Origin: Betaproteobacteria bacterium
GTDB taxonomy: Bacteria > Pseudomonadota > Gammaproteobacteria > Burkholderiales > Rhodocyclaceae
Length of the DNA stretch: 51,367 bases
Direction: 5' to 3'
Assembly: GCA_004295105.1 (NCBI GenBank)
Contig: SHNC01000256.1
Coordinates: forward strand, 1 to 51,367
Shown: positions 6,691-51,367 of the stretch, one piece after another
How the letters are laid out: each line of letters opens with the position of its first letter
Numbering within the stretch: position 1 is the first letter of the stretch
The notes under the pieces: model-generated
Seen by the model: only the letters and a program-made list of their open reading frames with translations
What the model was told of the DNA's origin: nothing
The model's database searches: none
Position numbers and translations under genes: made by a program

Positions 6691-6730
6691 AACGGCGCCA
6701 CAAACCGGCTGAAGGTTTGTGAGCGCCGTT
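6691..6730 (-). promoter_or_regulatory. Expression-platform hairpin of the metH riboswitch
   Basis: In the metH mRNA the arm AACGGCGCTCACAAACC (read from 6730 down) pairs with GGTTTGTGGCGCCGTT, about 16 bp with one bulged U and a 7-nt loop. The first arm contains the 3' strand of the SAH aptamer, so aptamer folding and this hairpin exclude each other. No U-tract follows, so whether it ends transcription or acts on translation is not settled by the sequence. Confidence 0.7.
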
Positions 6731-6790
6731 GATCGGTTGCCGAGCCTGGCCCTGGTCGTGTTGCAGCGGGGGTCGCAGCGCTCCTCGGCA
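6718..6790 (-). promoter_or_regulatory. S-adenosylhomocysteine (SAH) riboswitch
   Basis: Read on the minus strand from 6790, the RNA contains the three conserved blocks of the SAH aptamer in order: CCGAGGAGCGCTGCGACC, then after a variable hairpin CCAGGCTCGG, then CAACGGCGCTCAC. These match the published ahcY-motif consensus almost base for base and form the P1 stem and pseudoknot. SAH riboswitches switch genes on when SAH is high; here the controlled gene is metH, which consumes the homocysteine made from SAH. Confidence 0.93.
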
Positions 6791-6799
6791 GATCGCCGG

Positions 6800-35661: not shown

Positions 35662-35765
35662 CGTCGAGCGACATTCCACACGGTTAGACTGCGTAGGTCA
35701 TGCGAATATGTAGGTGCAAGATCGAAGGCGAAGATGATCCAACCATGTTGTCACGAGAAGACCGA

Positions 35766-38462
35766 ATGCCGAACCCATTGATGGATGCATCCACGCGAGT
35801 AGCGCTCGCCGCCTATCTGCACGACCTTGGCAAGTTTGCCGAGCGCGCGAAAGTCTTCAACGGCGACCCGCGGGTGGATGCGCATTTGACGCTCTATTGC
35901 CCGTTCCACAGCGAGGGGCGCTGGTTCAGCCACCAGCATGCAGCCCACACAGCACTTGCCTTCGGCGCAATCGAAGCCCATCTGCCCGACACTGTTCGCG
36001 GAGACGTCCTTCCTTTTGCCGGCCGCAAGTACGCAGGGGACTCAGACTCTGGTGAGGCGACGGACTCCCTGGTGAACGCTGCCGCCGCCCACCATAAACC
36101 TGACACCTTCCTGCAATGGATCATTGCCACCGCCGATCGTGTCGCCTCCGGCTTCGAACGCGAGGAGTTCGAGCAATACAACCACGCTGCGGAGAAGCGC
36201 GCCAACGGTCTCAATCACTACACCTCGCGCCAGTTGACCCTGTTCGAGCAGATCCGGCTGAACGACACGCAGGCGAGTGACGCGGCCCTTTCCCAACGCT
36301 ATCCGCTTCGAATGCTGTCGCCGCGCAGCATCTTCCCCGAGCCCGCGGCACTGTGCGAGGGGCGCGACGACCAAGCGGCCCAGGAGGAATACCGCGGACT
36401 ATGGGATCAGTTCATCGCCGGCCTGCGGCAGATTCCCGCCAGCCACCGCCACAACTGGCCGCTGTGGCTCGATCACTTCGACAGCCTGTGGCTCGCATGT
36501 ACGCACGCAATTCCTGCTGCTACCGCCTTCGGCGTGCGGCCTGAGGTCTCCCTCTACGACCACTCCCGCGCAGTAGCGTCGCTGGCCGTCGCCCTTTGGC
36601 GCTGGCATGAAGCCACGGCAAAAACCGGCAAGGACGCGGCACAAGCCCTGCGCACCCGATCCGACTTTGACGAAAAAAAATTCCTGTTGATTCAGGGAGA
36701 TTTCTTCGGCATCCAGGACTTCATTTTTGCAACGGGTGGCGAATCGCGAAAACACGCGGCAAAGCTGTTGCGCGGCCGCTCGTTCCAGGTATCGATCTTC
36801 ACCGAACTGGCGGCCCTGCGCGTCCTCGACGAACTCGGCCTGCCGCCGACGAGCCAGATCATCAATGCCGCCGGCAAGTTCATGATCGTCGCACCCAATA
36901 CGGCTGACGTTTGCGAGCGCCTGCAGAGCTTGCGCGCCGAGCTCGATGGCTGGTTCTCCGCGAATACCTTCGGCCAGGCTGGCGTCGGACTTGCCTGGAC
37001 GGCGGCGAGTTGCGCCGACTTCCTGCGCCGACACGGCGAGCGTAACGACAACACACCATTCAGCAAGCTGATGGCGCGTCTGCACCAGCAGCTCGACATC
37101 AGCAAACACCAGCGACTGAACTTGTGCGCGCGCGGCGGCACGGTGTTCAGCACCGCCGATTTCGCGCTCGGCCCCTGCGCCTATAACGGCCGCCTCCCTG
37201 CCGACCGAAAGTTCGGCGATGTAGCCTCGTGTGCACTTTCGCGCGACCAGATTGCGATCGGCGAGTCCCTGGTCAAACTCGACCGCATCCTCGTCCTCCG
37301 AAATGACGCGCGCGAAGTACTTCGCGAACATCGCAACCTGGCCCTGCTCGAGACCGATCTGTTCGGCCACGTTGTCGCATTTACCGCTGATGCCGACGCC
37401 ACCGGCCGTTTTGGCGAACTTGCAGGCAATGGCATGCTGCGCCGCTGCTGGGACTTCAGCCTGCCCAGTCCAGACGACGCAGAGGGCAGCGCTCCACTGT
37501 GGCATGGCTTCGCTCGCCGCTTCATCAGTGGTTACGTGCCCACCATGCGCTCGGACGATGTCGGCCCACTGCGCGACCGTTATGCGGGCCTGCTCGGCGA
37601 AGAGCCGATGCCCGACGTCGGCGACCTGAAGACACTCGATCTCCTCGCCTGCGAAGACCGCCAGCCTTCCGACACAGACAGCGCGCGCTGGCAGGGCGTT
37701 GCCTCGCTGGGCGTGCTGAAGGGCGACATCGACAATCTGGGCGAACTGTTCCGCACCGGCCTGAAGCAGCCGACCTTTGCCAAGATGGCTGCAATGTCTC
37801 GCCAGGTGAATGGCTTCTTCGCCATCTATCTGCCCTGGCTGCTCGCGCGCGACTTCCCCAATGTCTACACGGTCTTCGCCGGTGGAGATGATTTCTTTCT
37901 GATCGGCCCATGGCGCAGCGTGCAACGTCTGGCCTCGCGGCTACGCGACGATTTCAGGGTCTACGTCGCAGGGAATCCCGAGATCCACTTTTCAGCGGGC
38001 ATCGCCACGCAAAAGCCCGGCGCCCCCATCTTCAGCATCGCGGAACTGGCCGAAGACGCGCTGTCGGCGGCCAAGCAACACGATGGCAAGGACGCCGTCA
38101 CCTGCTTTGGCGAAACCGTGGCCTGGCAGACATGGCCAGAACTCGAGGCTGCGCTGACACGCCTCGAGGCCCTTCGCAGCGAGATGGATCTGTCGACCGG
38201 CTTCGTCTATGGCCTGCAGCAGTTCATCGACATGCGCAGGGAGGAGAAGAAGGGCACGGCCGAAGCCGCGATGTGGCGCTCGCGCCTGGCCTACCGCACC
38301 CGCCGTTTCGTCGTCGACCGACGCCGCGGCCTGAGTGAAGAGGAACGGCGGCGCCACACCACCCGCATCATCCAGGACATCGGCGGCACCGGGATCGAAA
38401 CGCTCGGCCCGGCCTACCGCATCGTCCTGTTCAACCATCTTTACCAGTTCAGGGATCGCTGA
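35766..38462 (+). CDS. cas10: Type III-A Cas10/Csm1
   Basis: Large subunit of the Csm effector, 898 residues from ATG 35766. N-terminal HD nuclease motif in AAYLHDLGKFAERA (H19-D20) for ssDNA cleavage, followed by HSEGRWFSHQHAAHTA; C-terminal palm with GGDD (706-709, in VFAGGDDFFLIG), so cyclic-oligoadenylate synthesis should be active. The second palm helix region LGVLKGDIDNLGELF is also typical of Csm1. In-frame ATGs at 35745 and 35700 are alternatives; 35766 has GAGAAG upstream and fits the family start. Its GC content looks somewhat lower than the flanking chromosome, in line with a mobile cassette. Confidence 0.95.
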   Translation: MPNPLMDASTRVALAAYLHDLGKFAERAKVFNGDPRVDAHLTLYCPFHSEGRWFSHQHAAHTALAFGAIEAHLPDTVRGDVLPFAGRKYAGDSDSGEATDSLVNAAAAHHKPDTFLQWIIATADRVASGFEREEFEQYNHAAEKRANGLNHYTSRQLTLFEQIRLNDTQASDAALSQRYPLRMLSPRSIFPEPAALCEGRDDQAAQEEYRGLWDQFIAGLRQIPASHRHNWPLWLDHFDSLWLACTHAIPAATAFGVRPEVSLYDHSRAVASLAVALWRWHEATAKTGKDAAQALRTRSDFDEKKFLLIQGDFFGIQDFIFATGGESRKHAAKLLRGRSFQVSIFTELAALRVLDELGLPPTSQIINAAGKFMIVAPNTADVCERLQSLRAELDGWFSANTFGQAGVGLAWTAASCADFLRRHGERNDNTPFSKLMARLHQQLDISKHQRLNLCARGGTVFSTADFALGPCAYNGRLPADRKFGDVASCALSRDQIAIGESLVKLDRILVLRNDAREVLREHRNLALLETDLFGHVVAFTADADATGRFGELAGNGMLRRCWDFSLPSPDDAEGSAPLWHGFARRFISGYVPTMRSDDVGPLRDRYAGLLGEEPMPDVGDLKTLDLLACEDRQPSDTDSARWQGVASLGVLKGDIDNLGELFRTGLKQPTFAKMAAMSRQVNGFFAIYLPWLLARDFPNVYTVFAGGDDFFLIGPWRSVQRLASRLRDDFRVYVAGNPEIHFSAGIATQKPGAPIFSIAELAEDALSAAKQHDGKDAVTCFGETVAWQTWPELEAALTRLEALRSEMDLSTGFVYGLQQFIDMRREEKKGTAEAAMWRSRLAYRTRRFVVDRRRGLSEEERRRHTTRIIQDIGGTGIETLGPAYRIVLFNHLYQFRDR

Positions 38463-38476
38463 AGGAGTCCACCCGC

Positions 38477-38971
38477 ATGGCAAACCATATCCCCGGCCGC
38501 GGCACATCCGCGCCCCGGCCAAACTCATCCAATCCCGGTTATCGCAGCAGCGACGAGCGTGCCAGGCGCGACGACGAACCTAACATCGATACGAGCCGGA
38601 TTCGTTTTGGCGATCAGATTGCACCGACGCTGTATTCGGATGTCGCCGAAGCGGCGGCACGCAGCATTGCCGACACAAGCATGCGCGACGCCAACAAGGC
38701 CACTCAGCTTCGCCGCTTCTATGACGAACTCGTCATGTTGCAGGGCAAGGTCGGCAACAGCGAAGACCGCTTTCATGCCCAGGCGCCTTACATCCAGATG
38801 CTCAAGGCAAAAGTGGCGTACGCCATGGGGCGGAAGAAGGTTGACGCGAATTTCGACCGGCTCCTGCGCCACATCGTCGATCAAGCCACCGACCACAGGT
38901 CGCTGGCGCAGGCCAAGCTGTTCATGGAGGCGTTCATGGCCTTCTACAAGGTCCATCGCCCGCAGGACTGA
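38477..38971 (+). CDS. csm2: Csm2, small subunit of the type III-A complex
   Basis: 164-residue all-helical small subunit. Recognised by TQLRRFYDELVMLQGKV and FHAQAPYIQMLKAKVAYAMGRKK (in part), the conserved Csm2 core. The first 45 residues are polar and probably disordered (PGRGTSAPRPNSSNPGYRSS). AAGGAG precedes the ATG; it starts 14 bp after cas10. Confidence 0.93.
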   Translation: MANHIPGRGTSAPRPNSSNPGYRSSDERARRDDEPNIDTSRIRFGDQIAPTLYSDVAEAAARSIADTSMRDANKATQLRRFYDELVMLQGKVGNSEDRFHAQAPYIQMLKAKVAYAMGRKKVDANFDRLLRHIVDQATDHRSLAQAKLFMEAFMAFYKVHRPQD

Positions 38972-39002
38972 GCGCTACACAACACATTCAAGGGAACATG
39001 AC

Positions 39003-39719
39003 ATGCAGCTCATCAAGATCCAGACCCTGGAAGGCACGCTCGAACTGCTCTCGGGCTTGCGTATCGGTGCCAGCGAGGGCGAGATCCGCATCGGCGGCGT
39101 CGACAACCAGGTGATTCGCAACCCGATCAACAACCAGCCCTACATCCCCGGTTCCAGCCTGAAGGGCAAGGTACGCAGCCTGCTGGAGTGGCGCAGCGGC
39201 GCAGTGAAGTCCGAGCCGCTCGGTATCGGTGATCTGTCGCCCAGGCACCCTGACGTGCGCCCCATCCTGCAGCTCTTCGGTGTAGGTGGCGGCGATCAAC
39301 TCAGCGACGAACAGGCGCGCGAACTTGGCCCGACGCGACTGGCGTTCTGGGATGCTGCACTTCAAGCCGAATGGGTCAGACAGGTCGAGGCTGACAATCT
39401 GCTACTGACCGAGGTCAAGACCGAAAACCGCATCGACCGGATCAAGGGCGTGGCAGAGCACCCACGGCAGACCGAGCGGGTTCCAGCCGGCTCGCGCTTC
39501 GATTTCCGCCTCTCGATCAAGGTGCTGGACATCGACGGTAATGGCACCACCTTGCTCCAGACCCTGTTCGCAGGCCTGCGCCTGCTCGAACTCGACAGCC
39601 TCGGCGGCTCCGGGTCGCGCGGCTACGGCAAGATCAAGCTCCGCGAACTGACGCTCGACGGCACCGACGTCCAGGCCGAGTTCGACTCCCTCGATCCCTT
39701 TGCCGCTCGCGCTGCCTGA
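39003..39719 (+). CDS. csm3: Csm3, target-RNA-cleaving backbone RAMP
   Basis: 238-residue RAMP that forms the filament backbone and cuts target RNA every 6 nt. The catalytic aspartate is kept (D34 in GGVDNQVIRNP), followed by the signature IPGSSLKGKVRSLLEW, and the Gly-rich RAMP loop SLGGSGSRGYGKI lies near the C-terminus. The ATG at 39003 has AGGGA upstream. The frame continues upstream in a long open stretch opposite csm2 that is not part of the gene. Confidence 0.96.
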   Translation: MQLIKIQTLEGTLELLSGLRIGASEGEIRIGGVDNQVIRNPINNQPYIPGSSLKGKVRSLLEWRSGAVKSEPLGIGDLSPRHPDVRPILQLFGVGGGDQLSDEQARELGPTRLAFWDAALQAEWVRQVEADNLLLTEVKTENRIDRIKGVAEHPRQTERVPAGSRFDFRLSIKVLDIDGNGTTLLQTLFAGLRLLELDSLGGSGSRGYGKIKLRELTLDGTDVQAEFDSLDPFAARAA

Positions 39720-39726
39720 AAAAGCG

Positions 39727-40656
39727 ATGGACAACTACCAAGTCACCCTGCAGCCGCTCTCGGCCTTTGGCACCCCGCTCGCCGGCGACACCCTGTTCGG
39801 GCAACTGTGCTGGGCAATCCGGGAGCGCTTCGGCGAGGCCAGGCTGACGAGTCTGCTCGATGGCTACACCGAGGGCAGGCCGTTTCTGGTCGTCTCCGAC
39901 GCCTTTCCGTCCGACTGGCTGCCGCGACCGCAGTTGCCCGACTTTCTGCTCGGTCTCGATAGCGACCCTGCTCAACGCAAGACAGCGAAGACTAGGGTCT
40001 GGCTCCCCCTGATCGACGCGGCGCTTCCGCTCGCCGAGTGGCTGGCTCGCGCTGCGGCATTGAAGACAACCGAACAACTGGTGCTGACCCAGAACACCAT
40101 CAACCGGCTCACCGGCACGACCGGCACCGGCCCCTTCGCACCGCGGCAGGTCGAGCGGTTGCAGCTATGCAGCGAGGGCGGCCTGCACGTCTATTGCTGC
40201 CTTGACTCGTCGCGCCTGATCAGTGCCGAACTCGGCCAGGTGCTTTCAGACGTGGGCATGAGCGGCTTCGGTCGCGACGCCAGCACCGGCCTCGGCAAGT
40301 TCTCGGTCAGCAATATCGTCGCCTGGCAATGGCCCGCTGCGGCAGGTCGCCACGCGCTCACGCTCGCCCCTTGCGCGCCTGCACCCCAGGCTCTGGACGC
40401 CAACGCCTGCTACTACCAGCCTCAGACCCGATTCGGTCGCCACGGCAACATCGCAGCAGTCGGGGGTCGCCCATTCAAGCGCCCGGTGCTTGGTTTGCGG
40501 ACCGCAGCCTTTCTCACCTTCCGGACGGGTCCGGTTCCCGACTTTCACGGCACAGGTCTTGGCGGGTCGCGCTCGCCAATTTCGGCAGCGATTCCCGCCA
40601 CCGTGCACCAGGGCTATGCGCCACTGGTGCCTCTCAATGCGGAGCTGCGCACATGA
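39727..40656 (+). CDS. csm4: Csm4, crRNA 5'-tag binding RAMP
   Basis: 309-residue RAMP that caps the 5' tag end of the crRNA next to Cas10. Features: YQVTLQPLSAFGTPLAGDTLFGQLCWAIRERFGE (in part), the first RAMP strand and helix, and the Gly-rich loop SDVGMSGFGRDASTGLGKF. The ATG at 39727 is preferred; an in-frame start at 39700 would overlap csm3. The stop overlaps the csm5 start (ATGA). Confidence 0.92.
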   Translation: MDNYQVTLQPLSAFGTPLAGDTLFGQLCWAIRERFGEARLTSLLDGYTEGRPFLVVSDAFPSDWLPRPQLPDFLLGLDSDPAQRKTAKTRVWLPLIDAALPLAEWLARAAALKTTEQLVLTQNTINRLTGTTGTGPFAPRQVERLQLCSEGGLHVYCCLDSSRLISAELGQVLSDVGMSGFGRDASTGLGKFSVSNIVAWQWPAAAGRHALTLAPCAPAPQALDANACYYQPQTRFGRHGNIAAVGGRPFKRPVLGLRTAAFLTFRTGPVPDFHGTGLGGSRSPISAAIPATVHQGYAPLVPLNAELRT

Positions 40657-42308
40657 GCGCTTTCTTCGATACCGTGGCTCTCGCAATCACGCCGCTGACG
40701 CCTGTCCACATCGGCTGCGGGCAGGATTTCGAACCGACCAACTATGTCATCGACGACGGCGTCCTGTACCACTTCGACCCGGCGCGAGTCCCCTTGTCCA
40801 AGTCAGATCGTGACGCACTGATCTCGGCGGTCAATCGCCGCGGCGATGAAGCGATTCGTGACCTGCAGAAGTTCTTTCATGCCCGCAAGGAGCGCTTTGC
40901 CGGGGTCGCCCACGGCGCAGTGGCTGTTGCAGCCGGCGTGGCCGAGCAGTACGGCCGGCGCATCGGCCAGGTCGCACAACACGAGAACGGCGGGCGCCGC
41001 GTAGCCAATCAGCTTGAGATCGAGCGCACCGCACATCACCCGCACACCGGCGCGCCCTACATCCCAGGCTCCAGCATCAAGGGCGCCATTCGCACCGCAT
41101 GGCTGGATCAGCTCAATGACGGCCAAGGGAAATCCCCCGGCGATCGCAACGCCCAGGATATCGAGAAGCGCCTCCTCGATTCGCGTGCCGGCTTCCATGC
41201 CGACCCGTTCCGCCTACTGCAGGTTGCCGACACCCGCTCAACCGAACTCGACAGCAAGGTCGTTTTCGCCACTAACCACAAGAAGCGCGAGGTCTATGAC
41301 AAGGACGGCCGGCTTGTTGAAGCCAAAGGGCCTGCAACCCGGCGCGAGGCAATCATGGGGGGGCAACATCGAGCATTGCGCGGCGAAATCCGCATCAGCA
41401 CGCTGCCCGGCATTGGCGCCGGCAGCCGCGCACCCGGCCCCGGACATCGCATCCCTGCATTCGCCGCCCTGGCGACCGCCTGCAACCGCTACTACCTGCG
41501 CCGCATGCGAGCACTGCTGGACGTCCTCGAAAGCCGTCGGCTTGCTGCTCCGCAGTGGCTATCCGAACTGAAGAAACTCCTGGCCGACCTCCAGCCCCAT
41601 CTCGACAGTGGCCACTTGATGCTACTTCGCGTCGGCCGTCATTCCGGTGCGGAGAGCGTCACGCTGGATGGGGTCCGCTCGATAAAGATCATGAAGGGCC
41701 GTGGGCAACCACCCGACTGGTCGCCGGAGGGCGCCAAGACGGTATGGCTGGCCGCCGAGCGCGACGGCGAACGCTCCGGCATGCTTCCCTTTGGCTGGCT
41801 CATCGTCGAAGCCGCCAACAGCGTACCGATCGAGTCGCTAGAGCACTGGTGCGCTGCCCAACCCCGGACGCAGATGGCCGAAATCCGCGCCCAACTCGCT
41901 GCGGCCCAACAGCGCGCAGCAGCCGAAACCCTGCGCCAGCACCAGCTTGAAGCTGAACGGCAAGCGCGGGCGGCAGCCGAGGCGGCTGCACAGGCAGCGC
42001 TCGAAGCAGCCCGCGCGCTGCTCTCCGCCGAAGGGAAGTTGATCGATGAGTTCGCCCGCAGTTGCCGGAGCAAAGCTGACAACGCGCGCAAGGACCCGCT
42101 CAACCCGGGTAGCGGCCTGTACGCGGAAGCCCTACGCCTGAGCAAGGCGGCTCTCCGCGCCGATAGCACCTGGAGCACTGAGGACCGTATGCAACTAGCC
42201 GAGATGTTGACCGAATGGTTGCCCAAGGTGGTCGACAAACTCGACCGCAAGGACGAATGGAAGGACGCCCGCAAGAAACTGCAGCTCGCGGCACTTCGTG
42301 GCGAATGA
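40653..42308 (+). CDS. csm5: Csm5 with long C-terminal helical extension
   Basis: 551-residue RAMP at the 3' end of the crRNA, which in other Csm systems recruits host nucleases for crRNA trimming. Core motifs: ITPLTPVHIGCGQDFEPTNYVID, the family start (in part), and YIPGSSIKGAIRTAWLDQL. Usual Csm5 proteins are about 350-400 residues. Here residues from about 410 on are extra: an Ala/Glu/Gln-rich coiled coil (about 415-470) and a terminal helical domain (ADNARKDPLNPGS, TEWLPKVVDKLDRKDEWKD). Coupled to csm4 by a 4-bp overlap. Confidence 0.9.
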   Translation: MSAFFDTVALAITPLTPVHIGCGQDFEPTNYVIDDGVLYHFDPARVPLSKSDRDALISAVNRRGDEAIRDLQKFFHARKERFAGVAHGAVAVAAGVAEQYGRRIGQVAQHENGGRRVANQLEIERTAHHPHTGAPYIPGSSIKGAIRTAWLDQLNDGQGKSPGDRNAQDIEKRLLDSRAGFHADPFRLLQVADTRSTELDSKVVFATNHKKREVYDKDGRLVEAKGPATRREAIMGGQHRALRGEIRISTLPGIGAGSRAPGPGHRIPAFAALATACNRYYLRRMRALLDVLESRRLAAPQWLSELKKLLADLQPHLDSGHLMLLRVGRHSGAESVTLDGVRSIKIMKGRGQPPDWSPEGAKTVWLAAERDGERSGMLPFGWLIVEAANSVPIESLEHWCAAQPRTQMAEIRAQLAAAQQRAAAETLRQHQLEAERQARAAAEAAAQAALEAARALLSAEGKLIDEFARSCRSKADNARKDPLNPGSGLYAEALRLSKAALRADSTWSTEDRMQLAEMLTEWLPKVVDKLDRKDEWKDARKKLQLAALRGE

Positions 42309-42312
42309 CTAC

Positions 42313-43296
42313 ATGACCGACATCGCCATCTTCGAAGCCCCCTCCGGCCAGATCGACGTACGTCTGGAAAGGGACAACGTCTGGCTCAGCCTCCCGCAGC
42401 TCGCTACCCTTTTTGGCCGCGACAAGTCGGTCATCTCCCGCCACATCCGTAACGTGTTCGCCGAAGCCGAACTCGAGCGCGCCGCAACCGTTGCAAATTT
42501 TGCAACGGTTCAGAATGAAGGCGGACGCGCGGTCGAGCGACAGCAGGAGCACTTCAACCTCGACCTCATCATCTCCGTCGGCTACCGCGTGAAGTCGCGC
42601 GAGGGCATCCGCTTCCGCCAATGGGCCACCCGCATCCTCAAGGACCACCTCACCCGCGGCTACACCCTCGACCGCCAGCGCCTCGAGCACAACGCGCGCG
42701 AGCTCGAAGCCGCGCTGCTGCTCGTCCGCCGCACCCTGTCCAACGCCGAACTCGCGCACGACGCCGGCAGCGGCCTGGCCGAGATCGTCGTGCGCTACAC
42801 GCAGACCTTCCTGTGGCTGCAGCGCTACGACGAGGGTCTGCTCACCGACCCACGCGGCCATCCAGGAGGCGACCTGCCGCCAGTGTCCGAAGCGCGTGCC
42901 GGCATCGCCACGCTGAAGGCCGACCTGATGGCCAAGGGCCAGGCCAGCGCGCTGTTCGGCAACGAGCGCGAGGACGGCCTCGCCGCCCTGCTCGGCAACC
43001 TCGACCAGACCGTGTTCGGCGAACCCGCCTACCCCACGCTGGAGTCCCGCGCCGCCCACCTGCTGTACTTCGCGGTCAAGAACCATCCGTTTTCCGACGG
43101 CAACAAGCGCATCGGCGCCTTCCTGTTCGCCGGCTTCCTGCACCGCAACGGCCGACTGTTCGGCGCGGACGGCGTCCCGGTGGTCAACGACGTCGGCCTC
43201 GCCGCGCTGTCGCTGCTCGTCGCGCAGTCACGCCCGGAGGAAAAGGACGTCCTGATTCGGCTGATCATGAACATGCTCGCCGGAGAGAACGCGTGA
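42313..43296 (+). CDS. RhuM-Fic fusion protein
   Basis: 327-residue protein. The N-terminal part is the RhuM/virulence-protein domain (VWLSLPQLATLFGRDKSVISRHIRNVF in part, then DLIISVGYRVKSREGIRFRQWATRIL), and the C-terminal part is a Fic domain with the full catalytic motif HPFSDGNKR (H258 onward). Fic enzymes usually transfer AMP to target proteins. It follows csm5 by 4 bp; a GTG start at 42298 would overlap csm5 by 11 bp. It may be a toxin-like guard or a passenger; no separate antitoxin is seen. Confidence 0.85.
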   Translation: MTDIAIFEAPSGQIDVRLERDNVWLSLPQLATLFGRDKSVISRHIRNVFAEAELERAATVANFATVQNEGGRAVERQQEHFNLDLIISVGYRVKSREGIRFRQWATRILKDHLTRGYTLDRQRLEHNARELEAALLLVRRTLSNAELAHDAGSGLAEIVVRYTQTFLWLQRYDEGLLTDPRGHPGGDLPPVSEARAGIATLKADLMAKGQASALFGNEREDGLAALLGNLDQTVFGEPAYPTLESRAAHLLYFAVKNHPFSDGNKRIGAFLFAGFLHRNGRLFGADGVPVVNDVGLAALSLLVAQSRPEEKDVLIRLIMNMLAGENA

Positions 43297-43413
43297 GCCG
43301 TTTCCGCCGTTCTCAGCCGATTGCGCCGCGCCTCGAAAGCGACGGACAGCCCGCCCGGAACATCACAAACCCAGTGCTACACTAAATTCGTGACGTACAT
43401 CCGGAGGTCCATC

Positions 43414-43665
43414 ATGCCCAACCTCACCATCACCGCCGACGAGGAAACGCTCCACCGGCTGCGCATCGAAGCGGCAACCCGCAACATCAGCGTGTCGCGC
43501 TTCGTCGGCGAAGTCCTGAAAGAGAAGTTCAGCGCCGACGACGCCTACGCGCGCGCAATGGCGGATTTCTTTTCGCGCGGCCCCTACCTGGAATCCGCCA
43601 CCCGCGACGACGGCCGCAGTTGGCCCGCCCGCGAAGAGCTGTACGACCGGTCGGTGCTGAAGTGA
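43414..43665 (+). CDS. Ribbon-helix-helix antitoxin (VapB-type)
   Basis: 83-residue antitoxin: short RHH N-terminus (MPNLTITADEETLHRLRIEA, then NISVSRFVGEVLKEKF) for DNA binding, and a C-terminal toxin-neutralising tail (SATRDDGRSWPAREEL). CCGGAGG precedes the ATG and a TACACT -10-like box lies at 43378. The stop overlaps the toxin start (GTGA), the standard VapBC arrangement. Confidence 0.8.
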   Translation: MPNLTITADEETLHRLRIEAATRNISVSRFVGEVLKEKFSADDAYARAMADFFSRGPYLESATRDDGRSWPAREELYDRSVLK

Positions 43666-44111
43666 GTCGCGTCTTCGTCGATACGAACATCCTGGCCTAT
43701 GCGCGCGACCGAAGGGACATGCACAAACAGCGCATCGCCACCGCCTGGCTGGCGATGCTCGCCCGCGAGCGCAGCGGCCGCCTTTCCTGGCAGGTGCTGA
43801 CCGAGTTCTACGCCGTCGCCATGCATCCGCGCAAACTGGCGATGGTCGAGGACGCGGCACGCGCCGACGTGCGCGCGCTGCAAGCCTGGAATCCCATCGG
43901 TCCTGATGCCGAACTGCTTGAGACCGCCTGGTCGCTCCAGACGCGGTATGGGTTCGCCTGGTGGGACGCGATGATCGTCGCTGCAGCGCAGAAGGCCGGC
44001 TGCGACACCCTGCTTTCCGAGGACATGCAGCACGGTCAGATCATCGACGGCAAGCTCACGGTCATCGATCCGTTCGCCACCGACGCGCCAAAAGTCACCC
44101 TGCCGCCATGA
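43662..44111 (+). CDS. vapC: PIN-domain toxin (VapC)
   Basis: 149-residue PIN ribonuclease. The acidic metal site is present: VFVDTNILAYA (D7), QVLTEFYAV, WWDAMIVAAA and LLSEDMQHGQ. The GTG start overlaps the antitoxin stop, and its own stop overlaps the csx16 start (ATGA). Related toxins cleave tRNA or rRNA. The tight coupling to both neighbours places it inside the cas operon rather than beside it. Confidence 0.88.
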   Translation: MSRVFVDTNILAYARDRRDMHKQRIATAWLAMLARERSGRLSWQVLTEFYAVAMHPRKLAMVEDAARADVRALQAWNPIGPDAELLETAWSLQTRYGFAWWDAMIVAAAQKAGCDTLLSEDMQHGQIIDGKLTVIDPFATDAPKVTLPP

Positions 44112-44618: not shown

Positions 44619-45788
44619 ATGACCACTCTGATCAGTTTTCTCGGCAAAGGCCGCTACGAGAAAGACGGCTACCGCACGGCCAGGTATCGCTTCGACCCAT
44701 CTTTCGTCCGTGAAGTCCCGTTCTTCGGCATGGCGCTCGACGATTACCTGAAACCGGACCGACTCATCCTGGTAGGCACTTCGGGCAGTATGTGGGATGT
44801 GTTCTTCGAGCGCGAGGCGAGCCAGAACGATGAATCGTTGCTGGAACTGATAGACGCGGTCGAATCGAATGCAGTGGCCGCATCCATGCTTCGCACTCAC
44901 GCGACGCGCTTGGCCGAGCGCCTCGGGCACCCGGTTGACTGTGTCCTGATCGACTATGCCCGCGACGAGACCGGCCAAGCCGCTCTCTTGGGCCAACTGG
45001 CAGCGCACCTCAACGAAGGCGAACACATCGCCATCGACGTGACTCACGCATTTCGCCACCTGCCGATGCTGGCGCTGATCGCCGCCCGTTTTCTCGCCCG
45101 TGTCAGAAACGTCCGTATCGAAGATATTTACTACGGTGCCTACGACATGAAGGACGAGACCAGCGGCGACGTTCCCGTCCTCCGTCTGAAGGGCATGCTG
45201 CGCATGCTCGACTGGGTCGATGCGCTGTCGAGCTACGACAAGGACGGGGACTACAGCGTCTTCTCGACATTGCTGGCGGAAGACGGCATGCCCGAGGGAC
45301 GGGCTCGCATCCTGGAATCGGCCGCTTTCCAGGAGCGCGTCAATCACATCGAAGGTGCGCGGCAAAAACTCAGCGCTTCGCTCGATGCCATCGCCAATCA
45401 TGAAGGCCCTGTCGGACGCTTGTTCAGGCCCGAACTCGAAGCGCGTGTCGCGTGGGTTCGGAAGCCAGAGCGCAGCCAGCGCGAGTTGGCCCTTGCCGAC
45501 GCTTATCTCGCCCGGCGCGACTACCTGCGCAGCACGATATTCTTGCTCGAAGGGCTGATCACGCGCGAGGTCGACCGGCGCAGAGGAATCGCAAATAACT
45601 TCAAGGAACGCGAAGAAGCGTCCAAAGCATTGGGTCAGGACAACAAGCGATTCAAGAAGCTCGAATGGTTGCGGAATGCACTCGCCCACGGCCAACGCTC
45701 CCAAGACGATGAGACCGCAAAGCTGCTCGCTGAAGAAAGCGCCTTGCGCGACGCCTTGAAGCGCTTCATCAGAGAACTCGTGGCATGA
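44619..45788 (+). CDS. CARF-HEPN ribonuclease, TM1812/Csx2 family
   Basis: 389-residue type III accessory nuclease. The N-terminal CARF-like domain starts TTLISFLGKGRY and continues RLILVGTSGSMWDVFFE and HIAIDVTHAFRHLPMLALI (cyclic-oligoadenylate pocket). The C-terminal HEPN domain has the catalytic RX4H motif RNALAH (R352, H357). It should become a non-specific RNase when Cas10 makes the second messenger. No ribosome site is obvious before ATG 44619. Its stop overlaps cas6 by ATGA. Confidence 0.9.
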   Translation: MTTLISFLGKGRYEKDGYRTARYRFDPSFVREVPFFGMALDDYLKPDRLILVGTSGSMWDVFFEREASQNDESLLELIDAVESNAVAASMLRTHATRLAERLGHPVDCVLIDYARDETGQAALLGQLAAHLNEGEHIAIDVTHAFRHLPMLALIAARFLARVRNVRIEDIYYGAYDMKDETSGDVPVLRLKGMLRMLDWVDALSSYDKDGDYSVFSTLLAEDGMPEGRARILESAAFQERVNHIEGARQKLSASLDAIANHEGPVGRLFRPELEARVAWVRKPERSQRELALADAYLARRDYLRSTIFLLEGLITREVDRRRGIANNFKEREEASKALGQDNKRFKKLEWLRNALAHGQRSQDDETAKLLAEESALRDALKRFIRELVA

Positions 45789-46723
45789 CCCTCCCCCTCG
45801 CCCGCTACCGCTTCACCTTCCGCATGGCCGCCCCGCTGCGCCTGCCCGACTACGCCGGCTCGCTGCTGCGCGGCCAGTTCGGCGCCGCGCTGCGCCGCGT
45901 GTCGTGCATGACCGGCGAGAAAACCTGCGACGCCTGCCCGCTGCGCACCACCTGCCCCTACCCGGCGATCTTCGAGGCGCCCGCACCGGCCACGCACGCG
46001 ATGCAGCACTTCAGCCACGTGCCCAACCCCTATGTCATCGAACCGCCGCCGTTCGGCACGCGCTTCATCGACGCGGGTGGCACGCTGCAGTTCGCGATCG
46101 TCCTCGTCGGCCGGGCGGTCGCGCAGTTGCCGCTGATCAGCTTCGCCCTGCAGCGTGCCGTCGAGGGTGGGCTCGGCAAGGAGCGGGCGACCGGATCGCT
46201 CGACTCGATCGAATGGCAGGCGGGCGACGACGAAAGCAGCTTCGTCTCCGTCTGGCAGGCCGGCGAAGCCGCGATCGCGCCGCACGAAGCCCTGCTCGGG
46301 CGCACCGCGCCGGCCACCGCCACCTCGTCGATCCGCCTGCGCCTGCACACCCCGCTGCGCCTGCAGCAGCAGGGCCATCCGGTGCGCCCGCAGGCGCTCA
46401 CGCCGCGCAAGCTGGTGGCCGACCTGCTGCGTCGCATCACCCTGCTCGCCGAATTCCACGCCGACCGCCCCGGCCTCGTCACCGACGCGCCGGCCCTCGT
46501 CCGCCATGCCGAAACACTGGACCACCAGCCCGCGCTGCGCTGGCAGGACTGGTCGCGCTACTCCAGCCGCCAGCAGCAGGAGATGACGCTCGGCGGTGCG
46601 ATGGGCGAATGGACGCTGCATGGCGACGTCGCCCCGCTGCTGCCCTGGCTGCGGCTGGGACAATGGCTGCACGTGGGCAAGAACGCGACGATGGGCATGG
46701 GGCACTACGCACTTCACCACTGA
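45785..46723 (+). CDS. cas6: Cas6 pre-crRNA endoribonuclease
   Basis: 312-residue RAMP of the Cas6 family that has a Cys-rich N-terminal segment: LLRGQFGAALRRVSC, EKTCDACPLRTTCPYP, common in type III-linked Cas6. The C-terminal Gly-rich RAMP loop LHVGKNATMGMGHYAL is intact. It cuts repeat RNA to give crRNAs with an 8-nt 5' tag, here expected to be ATTAAGAC. Overlaps the CARF-HEPN gene by 4 bp. Confidence 0.92.
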   Translation: MTLPLARYRFTFRMAAPLRLPDYAGSLLRGQFGAALRRVSCMTGEKTCDACPLRTTCPYPAIFEAPAPATHAMQHFSHVPNPYVIEPPPFGTRFIDAGGTLQFAIVLVGRAVAQLPLISFALQRAVEGGLGKERATGSLDSIEWQAGDDESSFVSVWQAGEAAIAPHEALLGRTAPATATSSIRLRLHTPLRLQQQGHPVRPQALTPRKLVADLLRRITLLAEFHADRPGLVTDAPALVRHAETLDHQPALRWQDWSRYSSRQQQEMTLGGAMGEWTLHGDVAPLLPWLRLGQWLHVGKNATMGMGHYALHH

Positions 46724-46820: not shown

Positions 46821-47069
46821 ATGAACACCCTCTCCATCAAGATCGATCCGGATCTGGAACGCGCCCTTGTACTGGCAAGTGAGCGCGAACACGTGAGCAA
46901 GTCCGAACTGATGCGCCGTGCGCTCGCGAGCTACCTGAACCAGCGCGCCGCAGCCGCGTCGGCGCCCTCGGCGCTCGACCTGGTCGGCGATCTTGCAGGC
47001 TGCTTCAGCGGCGGGCCTGCAGACCTGTCATCCAACCCCCGCCACCTGGACGATTTCGGCCGGCGATGA
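46821..47069 (+). CDS. CopG/RHH antitoxin (VapB-type)
   Basis: 82-residue ribbon-helix-helix protein: LSIKIDPDLERALVLASEREHVSKSELMRRAL (in part) is the DNA-binding domain and the tail (DLSSNPRHLDDFGRR) is the likely toxin-binding end. It overlaps the toxin gene by 4 bp and has its own promoter, so it can be expressed apart from the upstream cas genes. Confidence 0.85.
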   Translation: MNTLSIKIDPDLERALVLASEREHVSKSELMRRALASYLNQRAAAASAPSALDLVGDLAGCFSGGPADLSSNPRHLDDFGRR

Positions 47070-47485
47070 ACCACCGGCTGATCCTCGATACCGGCCCCTG
47101 GGTTGCACTGCTTTGCCGCGATGACGGTCATCACGAATGGGCCAAGGCACAGTTCGCGCAATTTCCCGGCCCTTTCCTGACTTGTGAGGCGGTGGTCGCC
47201 GAGACGTGCTTCCTGCTCGCTCGCGCCGGGTTCGACCCCGCCCGGGCGCTCATGCTGCTCGAGCGGGGCGCAGTTCGGATCGCCCTGTCGCTCGAAGAAC
47301 AGATTGCCCCGGTGCGCCGTCTGTTCGAACGCTACGACAACGTACCCGCCTCGCTGGCGGACGCGTGCCTGGTGCGCATGTCCGAGCTGTTCGAACCCTG
47401 CAGCATCCTGACCCTCGATAGCGATTTCGGCATTTACCGGCGCCACGGCCGCAAGACGATTCCCGTCATATCGCCTCAGGCGTAG
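47066..47485 (+). CDS. vapC: PIN-domain toxin (VapC)
   Basis: 139-residue PIN ribonuclease with its acidic residues in place: LILDTGPWVALL, VVAETCFLL, SLADACLVRM and TLDSDFGIYR. It differs clearly from the first PIN toxin (43662-44111), so the two pairs were gained separately. It ends 127 bp before cas2. Confidence 0.88.
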   Translation: MNHRLILDTGPWVALLCRDDGHHEWAKAQFAQFPGPFLTCEAVVAETCFLLARAGFDPARALMLLERGAVRIALSLEEQIAPVRRLFERYDNVPASLADACLVRMSELFEPCSILTLDSDFGIYRRHGRKTIPVISPQA

Positions 47486-47612: not shown

Positions 47613-47897
47613 ATGTCCAACCGCGATTTCTACCTTGCCGCCTACGACGTCGCCCACCCGCGCCGGCTGGTTGCCGCGCTGGCGCTGGTGCGCGGCTACA
47701 CCACCGGCGGGCAGAAGTCGGTGCACGAGGTCTTCCTCACCCGCGCCGAGCGCTTCGAGCTGCTGCACGACATGGCGCTGCTGCTGGACGAGGACAAGGA
47801 CCGCTTCTTCCTGCTGCGGCTCGACCGCAGCGCCCGCAGCTACGCCCTGGGCGTGGCGGCGATGCCGACCGACCCCGACTACTTCTACGTGGGATGA
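47613..47897 (+). CDS. cas2: Cas2 (first copy, divergent type)
   Basis: 94-residue Cas2 with the ferredoxin-like start RDFYLAAYDVAHPRRL (metal-site Asp D12) and the ending DPDYFYVG, a variant seen with some type III/I Cas1 proteins. It differs strongly from the second Cas2 at 49685. ATG 47613 is chosen; ATG 47604 lies within the inverted repeat. Cas2 bridges two Cas1 dimers during spacer integration. First gene of the four-gene adaptation operon. Confidence 0.88.
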   Translation: MSNRDFYLAAYDVAHPRRLVAALALVRGYTTGGQKSVHEVFLTRAERFELLHDMALLLDEDKDRFFLLRLDRSARSYALGVAAMPTDPDYFYVG

Positions 47898-47901
47898 CGC
47901 C

Positions 47902-48888
47902 ATGGCCACGCTGCTGCTCGACCGCGCCGATCTCGAAGTCCGCATCGTCGATGGCGCCCTCGCCCTGTACGAGAACGGCAGCCGCAGCCAGACGGTGCCG
48001 CTGCGACTGATCGAGCGCGCCATCATCCAGGGCGCCCGCACCCGGCTCGACAGCAGCGTGCTGCTGAAGCTCGCCGAAGCGGGCGTCGCCACACTGCTGC
48101 TCAGCCCGCGCGCCGGCCGCCAGGTCGCGATCGTTCTCGGCCCGGCGCACAACGACGCCGCGGTGCGCCTCGCACAGGCCCGCCGCACGATGGATCACGA
48201 CTTCTGCAAGGCATGGGCGCGCGGGCTCGTCACCGCCAAACTGCGGCGCCAGCACCGCCTGCTGCAACACGCCGAAACCCGCCGTCCCGACGTGCGCAAG
48301 TCGCTGTTCGACGCCCGCAAGGGCATCGACGTCGCGCTGCGCCAGGCCACCGACGACCAGCAAGCCGACTGCCCGCGCCTGCGCGGACTCGAAGGCAGCG
48401 CCGCGCGCGCCTACTTTCACGGCTACACCGCGCTGTTCGCGCCGGAACTCGTGTTCACGGGCCGCAACCGCCGCCCGCCGCGCGACCCGGTCAATGCCTG
48501 CCTGTCGCTCGCCTACACGCTGCTGCACTTCGACGCCGTGCGCGCCGCCCATGGCGCAGGGCTCGACCCGCTGCTCGGCTTCTACCATCGCCCCGCCTTC
48601 GGCCGCGAGTCGCTCGCCTGCGACCTCATCGAACCCCTGCGGCCCGTCGCCGACGAATGGATCTGGCAGCAATTCAGCAGCGGCCAGTTGCGCCCGGAGC
48701 ATTTCGGCACCGACAAAGGCGCGTACCTGCTCGGCAAGGCCGGGCGCGGCCACTTCTACGCCGGCTGGGAAAAGTTCGCGCCGCTGCCGCGCCGCTGGCT
48801 GCGGCAGCGCTGCGCGCAGCTCGCCCGGCAGATGCGCACCGAAGGCGAACCCTGGCTCGAAGAGTTCGAAGACGACGAGGTGTTCTGA
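47902..48888 (+). CDS. cas1: Cas1 integrase
   Basis: 328-residue Cas1 with an intact active site: E164 in LEGSAARAYF, H229 in GFYHRP and D241 in SLACDLIEPLRP. The N-terminal beta domain (ADLEVRIVDGALALYENG) and VNACLSLAYTLLHF helix are typical. It inserts new spacers at the leader end of the array. No Cas4 or reverse transcriptase is attached or nearby. It follows cas2 by 4 bp and precedes the second cas1 by 2 bp. Confidence 0.95.
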   Translation: MATLLLDRADLEVRIVDGALALYENGSRSQTVPLRLIERAIIQGARTRLDSSVLLKLAEAGVATLLLSPRAGRQVAIVLGPAHNDAAVRLAQARRTMDHDFCKAWARGLVTAKLRRQHRLLQHAETRRPDVRKSLFDARKGIDVALRQATDDQQADCPRLRGLEGSAARAYFHGYTALFAPELVFTGRNRRPPRDPVNACLSLAYTLLHFDAVRAAHGAGLDPLLGFYHRPAFGRESLACDLIEPLRPVADEWIWQQFSSGQLRPEHFGTDKGAYLLGKAGRGHFYAGWEKFAPLPRRWLRQRCAQLARQMRTEGEPWLEEFEDDEVF

Positions 48889-48890
48889 TC

Positions 48891-49694
48891 ATGTCCACGA
48901 CCGCCAGCCGCAGCCGCGCCACCGTCACTGCCACCATTGCGCGCAAGCCGCTGTACCTGTTCAGCGACGTCCCCGCGCACATCGACGCCGGGCCGGACCA
49001 TCTGGTGCTGCGCCGCAACGGCATGCCGGTGCAGCGTTTTCCGCTGGCCCGCATCGCACGCATCATTTGCAACCGCAATGCGTCGTGGTCCGGCGCCGCA
49101 CTCGCACTCTGCCTTGCCGAAGGCGTGCCCGTCACCTGGCTGGACGGCCGCGGGCATGCACTGGGCAGCACGCAAAGCTGCCATCCGCATCCGTTTCCAT
49201 TTTCCACCCTGGTCGAGACCTATCTGGAACTGCCCGACTGGCCCAAGCGCTTCGCCAACTGGCTCGCGCGCCGGCGCCTGGAAACGCTCACCGCCTGCGC
49301 AAAGCGCGCCGCCGAATGCGGTCACGGCCTCGACCCGGTCGCCTTCGAGGAACTGAAACGGGAATACGTCTATAACGGCGTCCATCCGCTGGCCTTCGGC
49401 ACCGAAGGCGAAGGCTGGTGCCACGCCCTGGTGGTCGATCGACTGCAACGCGAGGGGCTTCAGGCCTGCTACTGGGGCTTCGATGCCACCCCGCTGGAGC
49501 TTGCCGCCGAGCTTGCGACGCTGCTGTGGGCCGAATTGAACCTGGACTGCGGCACCCTGCCCGCGAGCGCGGACCACGGCGTGGTGCTGGCGCGACTCTT
49601 CGAGGCCTGGGCCAGGCAGCGCGAGGCCCGCCTGCTGCTGCACCTTGGCGACCTCAAGCGCCACCTTGCGCGGGAGGTCGACGCATGGCACTGA
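48891..49694 (+). CDS. cas1: Second, divergent Cas1-like protein lacking the catalytic triad
   Basis: 267-residue protein. Its first ~95 residues look like the Cas1 beta domain (PLYLFSDVPAHIDAGPDHLVLRRNG in part, PLARIARIICNRNASWSG, VPVTWLDGRGHALGS). The helical C-terminal part (LVETYLELPDWPKRFANWLARR, YWGFDATPLELAAELATLLW) is shorter than in Cas1, and I find no counterpart of the LEG glutamate or the GFYH histidine. So it is probably inactive as an integrase and may serve as a structural partner. It sits between the active cas1 and the second cas2, overlapping the latter by 10 bp. Remote Cas1 homology is inferred by eye; a search is needed to confirm it. Confidence 0.7.
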   Translation: MSTTASRSRATVTATIARKPLYLFSDVPAHIDAGPDHLVLRRNGMPVQRFPLARIARIICNRNASWSGAALALCLAEGVPVTWLDGRGHALGSTQSCHPHPFPFSTLVETYLELPDWPKRFANWLARRRLETLTACAKRAAECGHGLDPVAFEELKREYVYNGVHPLAFGTEGEGWCHALVVDRLQREGLQACYWGFDATPLELAAELATLLWAELNLDCGTLPASADHGVVLARLFEAWARQREARLLLHLGDLKRHLAREVDAWH

Positions 49695-50014
49695 ATGCCC
49701 CGCGCGGCTGGCTCATCACCTACGACATCACGCAGCCAAAGCGGCTCGCGCGGCTGCATCGCTTCCTGGTGAAGCAGGCGACGCCGGTGCAATATTCCGT
49801 GTTCCACTTCGAGGGCAGTCCCGCGCAGATGGGCCGCCTGATGGCCGACATCGAGACGCGCATCGATCCGAAGTCGGACGACGTCCGGGCCTACCAGTTG
49901 CCGGAGCGCCTCTCCATCGACACGATCGGCCGCGGAAGCCTGCCCGGCGACACCTTCGTGCTGTCCAACACGTCGCCGTCGCTGCAGAAGCTGCTGCAGG
50001 CTGCAGGCCGGTGA
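49685..50014 (+). CDS. cas2: Cas2 (second copy, canonical type)
   Basis: 109-residue Cas2 of the common type: WLITYDITQPKRLARLHRFL (D14 at the metal site), PVQYSVFHFEGSPAQMGRLM and DDVRAYQLPE. A C-terminal tail of about 30 residues follows (GSLPGDTFVLSNTSPSLQ). It overlaps the second cas1 gene by 10 bp and is the last cas gene before the leader. Its coupling to the divergent Cas1 suggests these two act together. Confidence 0.9.
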   Translation: MALNAPRGWLITYDITQPKRLARLHRFLVKQATPVQYSVFHFEGSPAQMGRLMADIETRIDPKSDDVRAYQLPERLSIDTIGRGSLPGDTFVLSNTSPSLQKLLQAAGR

Positions 50015-50134
50015 TACGATGTCGCCACCACCCGCACTGCCCAGCCCGCGTGACAATCCGCTCCCGACATTGCCCCAACCAGTGTGAAGCCACCTTCCAG
50101 CGGCTTGAATCCAAAACGCTTTTCGAAGCGAGCC
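50015..50134 (+). promoter_or_regulatory. CRISPR leader
   Basis: 120 bp between cas2' and the first repeat. A TGATACGAT extended -10 overlaps the cas2' stop (50011-50019). A small hairpin CGCTT-TTCG-AAGCG (50117-50130) ends 4 bp before the first repeat. The leader is not AT-rich. Confidence 0.6.
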
Positions 50135-51367
50135 GTTCGAACTGATGCCCTGATGTGAAAGGGATTAAGACGCTGTGTTCGGATCAAAGCCACCTGCTTG
50201 AAGTGTTCGAACTGATGCCCTGATGTGAAAGGGATTAAGACGTTGAGGTACGCGACACTGAGATAGACCAGAGCCGTTCGAACTGATGCCCTGATGTGAA
50301 AGGGATTAAGACTTCTTCGGCGCAGCGCCCCGTTTTTCCATGGTTCGAACTGATGCCCTGATGTGAAAGGGATTAAGACGACTTTGCAGGCGAATAGCAC
50401 GTTCCGCAATCGGTTCGAACTGATGCCCTGATGTGAAAGGGATTAAGACAGCCGCTTCCGCGACCGGAGCCGGAGCCGCTTGTTCGAACTGATGCCCTGA
50501 TGTGAAAGGGATTAAGACCCCCCTTATCCGCCTTCGTCATCAGGCCGTGTTGTTCGAACTGATGCCCTGATGTGAAAGGGATTAAGACTGCCTCCGCCTT
50601 GGCCTTGTTGCTGGCCAAGGTTCGAACTGATGCCCTGATGTGAAAGGGATTAAGACAGCTACCAGTACACGGTGACGCGCCGCGGCAGCGGTTCGAACTG
50701 ATGCCCTGATGTGAAAGGGATTAAGACACCGCAGCGATGAGCGGCTTCGATTCCTTCACCGTTCGAACTGATGCCCTGATGTGAAAGGGATTAAGACGGA
50801 ATGTCGCCTCGATCCATCCCATTTCAGCGGTTCGAACTGATGCCCTGATGTGAAAGGGATTAAGACCCCCGTGACCGTCGCGGGGTGGTGAGTGCAGTTC
50901 AGTTCGAACTGATGCCCTGATGTGAAAGGGATTAAGACAGTCCAGATCGAGGCCGCTGCTGTTAGCAGCACGTTCGAACTGATGCCCTGATGTGAAAGGG
51001 ATTAAGACGAAGGTGGTTCTGAATGAACTGCACATCGTTATGTTCGAACTGATGCCCTGATGTGAAAGGGATTAAGACCTCATGGGGTGGTTCCTTGTGC
51101 CGCGGTGTGGTTCGAACTGATGCCCTGATGTGAAAGGGATTAAGACCAAGATTCTCGTGCCTTCAGCCAAACGCGGGCGTTCGAACTGATGCCCTGATGT
51201 GAAAGGGATTAAGACGCCACGTCGGGCACGCCTTCGAGATACCCTCAGTTCGAACTGATGCCCTGATGTGAAAGGGATTAAGACGCGCGCAAGGTGCGAA
51301 CCTTGCGCGCAAGGGCAAGGTTCGAACTGATGCCCTGATGTGAAAGGGATTAAGACTTCGCGGAGCA
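50135..51367 (+). CRISPR. Type III-A CRISPR array, 18 repeats visible, continuing past the window
   Basis: Eighteen repeats of 37 bp, starting GTTCGAACTGATGCCC and ending GAAAGGGATTAAGAC, all identical by eye, at 50135, 50205, 50276, 50343, 50413, 50482, 50552, 50620, 50691, 50761, 50830, 50902, 50972, 51042, 51110, 51179, 51248 and 51320. The 17 complete spacers are 30-35 bp; the 18th is cut by the window edge. The repeat end ATTAAGAC is the likely 8-nt crRNA tag, so transcription runs left to right from the leader. The repeat has an 8-bp palindrome (GTTCGAAC) at its 5' end and a short CCCT/AGGG stem as probable Cas6 site. No degenerate terminal repeat is seen, so the distal end lies outside. 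Confidence 0.98.

Follow-up and report, generated by a model that had tools for sequence, protein, structure and literature searches.

What could a second Cas1 protein that has lost catalytic residues contribute to spacer acquisition, and why is it encoded together with a catalytic-type Cas1 and two unlike Cas2 proteins? The question is raised by 51,367 nucleotides from a Betaproteobacteria bacterium (Rhodocyclaceae; GCA_004295105.1, contig SHNC01000256.1), one entire contig that we refer to as the window. There, a type III-A clustered regularly interspaced short palindromic repeats (CRISPR)-Cas locus includes a doubled adaptation module on the forward strand, consisting of cas2 (47613..47897, 94 amino acids), cas1 (47902..48888, 328 amino acids), the second cas1, cas1' (48891..49694, 267 amino acids), and cas2' (49685..50014, 109 amino acids). 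A 4-bp gap separates cas2 from cas1, a 2-bp gap separates cas1 from cas1', and cas1' and cas2' overlap by 10 bp, in agreement with a preliminary description of the sequence. The four genes occurred in this order in 62 of 92 sets from several phyla, a recurrence that is not due to chance, and we propose, with a probability of about one half, that Cas1' has become a non-catalytic protomer dedicated to pairing with Cas1 within a heteromeric type III spacer integrase.

Two Cas1 proteins and two kinds of Cas2

The cas1 product scored above both family cut-offs (PF01867, 219.8 bits vs 22.3; TIGR00287, 161.2 bits vs 71.7), and its AlphaFold2 model had a mean predicted local distance difference test (pLDDT) score of 96.0. 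The E164/H229/D241 triad already named in the preliminary description was invariant in alignments of 11 and 79 rows and in 78/78 module rows including the window. Family scores and triad together predict a catalytic Cas1 integrase, whose nearest solved relatives were 7mi4 (a Cas4/Cas1 fusion) and 8d3l (from a I-C entry series). An RPPxDP motif was present in 77/79 Cas1 vs 0/55 Cas1' sequences.

Cas1' matched Pfam Cas_Cas1 through an N-terminal stretch only (29.6 bits), the part in which a Cas1-like domain had first been noticed. The likeness nevertheless runs the full length of the protein, as a profile of 55 Cas1' sequences aligned end to end with a profile of 79 Cas1 sequences (hhalign probability 99.4%). 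The AlphaFold2 model, like that of Cas1 a single chain, had a mean pLDDT of 94.7. Foldseek with the Cas1' model returned 152 matches at E ≤ 0.001 (best E 4.3e-9, best template modelling (TM) score 0.68). We take the best 50 of these 152, by title or as known structures, to be Cas1 or Cas1-complex entries, and the match 2yzs, titled as uncharacterized, was itself matched by the Cas1 profile. Structure prediction and profile comparison of the 48891-49694 product, suggested earlier as a check, thus returned a Cas1 fold, with a predicted N-terminal beta domain and C-terminal helical domain.

In the profile alignment E164 of Cas1 corresponds to H145 of Cas1', H229 to a gap, and D241 to E207. The E164 column contained Glu in 4 of the 55 Cas1' sequences and no conserved acid, and no conserved His was found near the H229 place across these 55. 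The D241 column was mostly acidic (Asp in 41, Glu in 3). The original statement that the second Cas1 lacks a visible triad therefore stands for Glu and His, but the Asp position is largely retained as an acid. By the Glu-His-Asp signature we would not class Cas1' as a catalytic Cas1. Its helical C-terminal domain was shortened by the absence of one segment, and its N-terminal domain was the better conserved of the two (mean column entropy 2.36 vs 3.05 bits); in Cas1 the values were 2.16 and 2.01 bits, and the N-terminal domain was not the better conserved.

The window Cas1' matched the PADLOC profile PDLC01185 ("Cas1, diverged variant, second in the loci") over 246/246 positions with 401.5 bits, and the full-length match and the position as second cas1 in the locus assign it to this family on sequence grounds. 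The profile also matched 54/55 Cas1' relatives; it misses a diverged copy in locus L074. The PADLOC entry consists of a profile and a one-line description with no function shown, and as displayed it omits the doubled Cas2 and the sets without cas1'. Among the papers listed in our literature searches, mainly openly accessible ones, we found no functional account of the doubled module. The preliminary description, which knew of none, held up in this respect, but Cas1' belongs to a family that is already catalogued and conserved, its function uncharacterised, and the III-A locus of Methylobacter KS41 had been noted in 2018 to have "two copies of cas1/cas2" (pointing to Acidithiobacillus ferrivorans YL15; PMC6119699). 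In the available text of that paper the doubling occupies one sentence, with no analysis of the second Cas1. The KS41 locus, known here from that mention alone, is likely the same module as that of the window.

The two Cas2 proteins represent distinct subfamilies, consistent with the initial view that they are of different types. The cas2 product is the diverged one (Pfam CRISPR_Cas2, 27.1 bits, cut-off 23.8; no NCBIfam match at E ≤ 1), and it forms a subfamily of its own; column conservation across 78 rows showed a GGQKSVxE-like motif and a conserved C-terminal end. The cas2' product is of the ordinary type (Pfam, 56.1 bits, same cut-off; TIGR01573, 36.2 bits, cut-off 24.5).

Distribution, history and selection

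Our Cas1-profile scan kept 80 loci of at least 573 confirmed. The tally covered 91 loci plus the window (L021 and L069 are the same record) and was seeded by a search with the window Cas1, so that its figures do not represent frequencies among all Cas1. The 62 four-gene sets comprised 59 of the main class plus L049, L061 (where cas1 spans two frames), and L074. In two sets cas1' was present and cas2' was not close (L032, which lies at the end of its contig, and L066, whose cas2' is 2.4 kb off), three sets were truncated by contig ends (L021/L069, L094), three were irregular (L027, L082, L098), and five were ordinary single pairs. The remaining 17 had the order cas2-cas1-cas2' without cas1' and kept both kinds of Cas2 (L041, L051, L053, L054, L056, L057, L059, L063, Nitrosomonas halophila L065, L070, L075, L078, L080, L085, L087, L096, and Endozoicomonas L103). 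L103 (1-5553) was counted as cas1'-less and has the order cas2-cas1-cas2'-cas1, the last being another full-length Cas1 by profile. In the three-gene sets, two unlike Cas2 flank a single Cas1. Additional sets were four-gene in L124, L126, L127, L128 (cas1 spanning two frames), and L130, and three-gene in L129; L125 is L062 by coordinates.

Hosts of the four-gene set were mostly Pseudomonadota, with further cases in Acidobacteriota, Nitrospirota, a metagenome-assembled genome (MAG) assigned to Myxococcota, and an Aminicenantes MAG; since many hosts are MAGs, an isolated unexpected host may reflect misbinning. The PDLC01185 profile matched 5/399 genomes of the order and 8/398 of the phylum, with the genome of the window in both counts, and one of the eight (L012/L023) contained an ordinary single Cas1. 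Plasmids and phages searched with Cas1' gave zero matches, and in viral contigs the 62 pattern matches to the Cas1 profile included no relatives. Because the same four-gene set is found in many bacteria, the dead Cas1 copy is probably a working part.

In a tree of 90 Cas1 rows, a 100/100 branch split 85 expanded-module rows from five ordinary rows. The rows nearest this branch were four-gene, and 12 cas1'-less rows fell into one group (96/93). Rooted on the ordinary side, the tree suggests that the four-gene set arose once and that cas1' was then lost several times; as a caution, the tree was midpoint-rooted for drawing, needs 13 changes of the four-gene label, has several weak forks, and still marks L074 as cas1'-less. 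Because the five ordinary loci run cas1 then cas2, we regard cas1-cas2' as the probable ancestral pair, to which cas2 and cas1' were added; the cas2 of these loci best matched the cas2' profile in three cases and the cas2 profile in two. The preliminary description had seen two mirror-ordered couples, which fits the gene order but probably not its history.

The cas1' gene is under purifying selection. NG86 omega was 0.135-0.619 in the 12 computable of 14 pairs with cas1' on both sides, and was higher than that of cas1 in 11/12, with one tie; these pairs share members, and many of their synonymous distances are near saturation. Gene coupling was tight. The cas1' start lay within -40..+30 of the cas1 stop in 56/58 loci (4-base overlap in 26) and the cas2' start within the same range of the cas1' stop in 57/59 loci (4-base overlap in 19), in a count that used the nearest start codon and therefore favours small gaps.

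Loss of Cas1' was accompanied by shifts in 2/326 columns of Cas1, 0/96 of Cas2, and 0/107 of Cas2', with 0, 1, and 0 in a control grouping. At Cas1 H267 (window 48700-48702), four-gene rows had His in 42/59 and Asp in 7/59, and cas1'-less rows had Asp in 12/16. This is a possible compensating site, though a weak lead confounded by kinship. Loci L013 and L014 were mostly 94-100% identical (with a dip to 83%) across cas2 and most of cas1; the block stops in the 3' part of cas1 and identity is 54-84% thereafter, which suggests one case of module halves recombining apart.

A proposed dedicated non-catalytic Cas1 and its alternatives

We propose that the products of the four genes would assemble into a single heteromeric spacer integrase serving a type III CRISPR system, and the preliminary description had already considered a heteromeric integrase plausible. 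Cas1 would be its sole catalytic subunit, and Cas1' would pair with Cas1 via the conserved N-terminal domain and occupy the Cas1b position, that of the idle second Cas1 in each dimer, touching Cas2, while the central bridge would consist of, or be shared by, the two Cas2 kinds. The split of tasks that position imposes on ordinary Cas1 would thereby be fixed by a gene, and Cas1' could make the ends of the complex inherently unlike. Loss of cas1' would be tolerated, as Cas1 presumably refills both positions. The available text of PMC10011333 describes an E. coli complex in which catalysis falls to a single Cas1 of each dimer and the other, Cas1b, touches the Cas2 dimer, and that of PMC8102632 describes a "non-catalytic Cas1b" in the type III reverse transcriptase (RT)-Cas1 complex (Cas6-RT-Cas1/Cas2, 7kft). 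A dedicated Cas1b gene fits the module because cas1' is dead, co-oriented, overlapping, and conserved in its N-terminal domain. Partial correlations between distance matrices point weakly toward the same role. The highest was that of Cas1 with Cas1' (0.36; 0.35 in a first run), that of Cas1' with the upstream Cas2 was 0.29, and there was no special co-evolution of Cas1' and Cas2' (-0.003; 70% subsamples -0.11 to 0.10; -0.05 in another run).

The module shares with canonical Cas1-Cas2 systems (E. coli I-E, I-C, and the Cas4/Cas1 of I-G) a Cas1 with the Glu-His-Asp triad, a Cas2, and a leader-adjacent array, but differs from them in that it has a pair of dissimilar Cas1 proteins and a pair of dissimilar Cas2 proteins, and no Cas4 in our sample of neighbouring genes. 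That sample comprised 137 open reading frames (ORFs) beside 49 four-gene loci, at most three per locus, matched to Pfam at E ≤ 1e-5, with singly matched families partly listed; Cas4 was not among the families matched by at least two ORFs. With 7kft it shares type III adaptation. Unlike that system, it had no RT either among the families matched by at least two of these ORFs or in the 12 distinct window proteins scanned, a set outside which the Fic-like and first PIN genes fall, and on this evidence the module would not be classed with those that have an RT fused or adjacent to Cas1. RVT_1 was found somewhere in the genomes of 18/37 relatives, a genome-wide count not tied to module loci.

A further step, which we consider rather doubtful, is that the integrase would be intrinsically asymmetric: two unlike Cas2 would link a catalytic Cas1 to a dead one, and the two ends would differ because of the genes that encode them. 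This would determine which pre-spacer end is inserted on the leader side, or which pre-spacers the enzyme takes up. To our knowledge type III systems have no PAM (protospacer adjacent motif) marking one end, and such an enzyme would bear on how they orient new spacers. In the characterised Cas1-Cas2 integrases known to us, the working and the idle position are both filled by the same kind of Cas1. If the positions are split into two genes, the module would be a natural separation of function in which the idle protomer can be mutated apart from catalysis, with the cas2-cas1-cas2' sets as a natural deletion for ready comparison.

Several observations weigh against the proposed heteromeric integrase. 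The Foldseek superpositions were loose (TM ≤ 0.68, root-mean-square deviation mostly 5-9 Å), the much diverged C-terminal domain of Cas1' could serve another purpose, and the partial correlations are modest and do not amount to a test of interaction. Cas1' is also dispensable, as the 17 sets without it indicate. Of the genomes of 21 selected loci, 20 were searched with PDLC01185, and 17 of these, including that of L074, gave no match; of the rest, that of L027 holds a full four-gene set elsewhere (L130) and two had weak partial matches. This search misses diverged copies, since the unmatched genome of L074 does hold a Cas1', which our Cas1' profile A4 recovered at 96-104 bits. In the 18 other genomes, A4 scores did not exceed 57 bits and its matches ended by position 209 of 259; for L057 and L082, where coordinates were compared, it had matched the Cas1 of the module itself. 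Nor does gene fusion help. The sole apparent Cas1'-Cas2' fusion, in L074 (10951-11967), was rejected as a one-base frame difference from the near-identical L124 of the same genome, where cas1' and cas2' are separate and Cas1' was matched to profile position 259; L074 is thus counted as four-gene.

Among the alternatives, the one that survives best, possible though unlikely, has two complexes instead of one. Cas1-Cas2' would integrate, and Cas1' with the other Cas2 would capture, protect, or select pre-spacers and hand them over like Cas4. Such a Cas4 stand-in is conceivable because no Cas4 was among the families matched at least twice in the neighbour sample, yet 7mi4 and 8d3l, the nearest solved relatives of Cas1, come from Cas4-containing systems, and Cas1' distances correlated with the upstream Cas2 and not with Cas2'. 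The limits of the neighbour sample, in ORFs per locus and in singly matched families, reduce the force of the first point. Both Cas2 proteins also persist where Cas1' has been lost, which argues that the second Cas2 is independent of Cas1'.

Recognition of the leader or the repeat by Cas1', a role raised in the preliminary description, is improbable given what the cas1'-less loci retain, though the choice or handling of pre-spacers, the other role it raised, may apply. In 32 four-gene leaders there was a positioned motif beside the first repeat, with a mean of 0.355 bits/column vs 0.138 in the preceding 70 bases, which would suit a dedicated reader, but 11 cas1'-less leaders had a similar signal (0.435 vs 0.255 bits/column). 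AA at -36 and TGA at -29 were found in 16 and 14 of the 32 four-gene and in 6 and 5 of the 11 cas1'-less leaders, compared with 2 and 0 (four-gene) and 2 and 1 (cas1'-less) at positions 70 bases further upstream, counts to which no formal test was applied. The figures of the four-gene leaders are lowered by two unusable rows (L036, L044). Since the motif is common to loci with and without Cas1', its reader is probably among Cas1, Cas2, and Cas2'. The motif itself (AA....TTGA, ~27-36 bases before the first repeat) is family-wide and is a candidate integrase docking site; the window copy (50080-50134) departs from it at AA.

The repeat comparison was less one-sided. The repeat type (...CCCTGA...AAGGGATTAAGAC) was common to loci with and without cas1', which speaks against a repeat reader, but 37-nt repeats were found in 23/32 four-gene loci and 36-nt repeats in 9/12 cas1'-less loci (Fisher p 0.007, kinship ignored), a difference that is confounded by kinship and leaves some room for a link to the repeat. 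Several four-gene loci, including the deep ones L017 and L020, also had 36-nt repeats. Spacer length gave no support to Cas1' as a spacer ruler, a role we rejected, with medians of 34 in the four-gene and 33 in the cas1'-less loci (Mann-Whitney p = 0.43) and per-locus medians of 29-36 and 31-34.5, respectively. These comparisons were limited to loci in which a 36- or 37-nt repeat was detected, with L074 apart; 27/59 four-gene and 5/17 cas1'-less loci were dropped, mostly with no array in the stretch. As judged from sequence, the cas1'-less loci, with their similar leader motif, shared repeat type, and same spacer length, argue against Cas1' as a leader reader or spacer ruler.

Cas1' as a brake, forming non-productive dimers with Cas1 that would limit spacer uptake and control self-immunity, is similarly improbable. 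A dead paralogue coupled to the active form could act in this way, and its dispensability would fit, but a structural part would equally explain why cas1' has long been conserved in a fixed order with cas2' and why its D241 position is mostly acidic. A degraded, functionless copy is effectively refuted: Glu and His are lost, omega exceeds that of cas1 in 11/12 pairs, and cas1' was lost more than once on the tree, but it is a full-length open frame in the 62 four-gene sets (the L074 frame difference excepted), has omega below 1 in 12/12 computable pairs, matches one family profile in 54/55 cases, and has a confident predicted fold. The preliminary description had itself named a random degraded copy absent from related loci as the finding that would overturn its view, and this is not what the related loci contain.

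The surrounding type III locus

The four-gene set sits between the III-A (Csm) effector locus and its CRISPR array, all on the forward strand. The effector genes cas10, csm2, csm3, csm4, and csm5 (35700..42308) were assigned by Pfam and PADLOC matches and, together with cas6 (45785..46723; PDLC01477, 341.2 bits), identify the locus as type III-A. A Csx1-type CARF-HEPN effector (within the frame 44620..45788; TIGR02221) precedes cas6. Downstream of cas2', a 120-base leader (50015..50134), with the family motif in its last ~55 bases, leads to an array of 37-nt repeats (18 copies detected) and 30-35-nt spacers (50135..51367) that reaches the contig end. Across the genome of the window, a Cas_Cas1 search matched Cas1 and Cas1' and nothing further, and a repeat search gave 13 matches, every one within the window array.

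The module accompanies both III-A and III-B effectors, with Csm in the window and Cmr plus a CARF-PDDEXK protein in Rhodoferax antarcticus L034. Recurrent Pfam families among the 137 neighbouring ORFs were Cas6 (12), RAMPs (7), NE0113 (5), and Csm6 HEPN (5), and the commonest neighbours were Card1-like CARF-PDDEXK nucleases (13/137). The CRISPR-cas locus of the window also contains what we take, from an HPFxDGNKR motif, to be a Fic-like gene (42298-43296) and, by eye, a second small toxin-antitoxin-like pair (43321-44111). A VapC-like PIN gene (47066-47485) scored 20 bits with TIGR00028, under its cut-off. Elsewhere in the window, an S-adenosylhomocysteine (SAH) riboswitch (RF01057, 56.7 bits) was found at 6714-6792 on the reverse strand.

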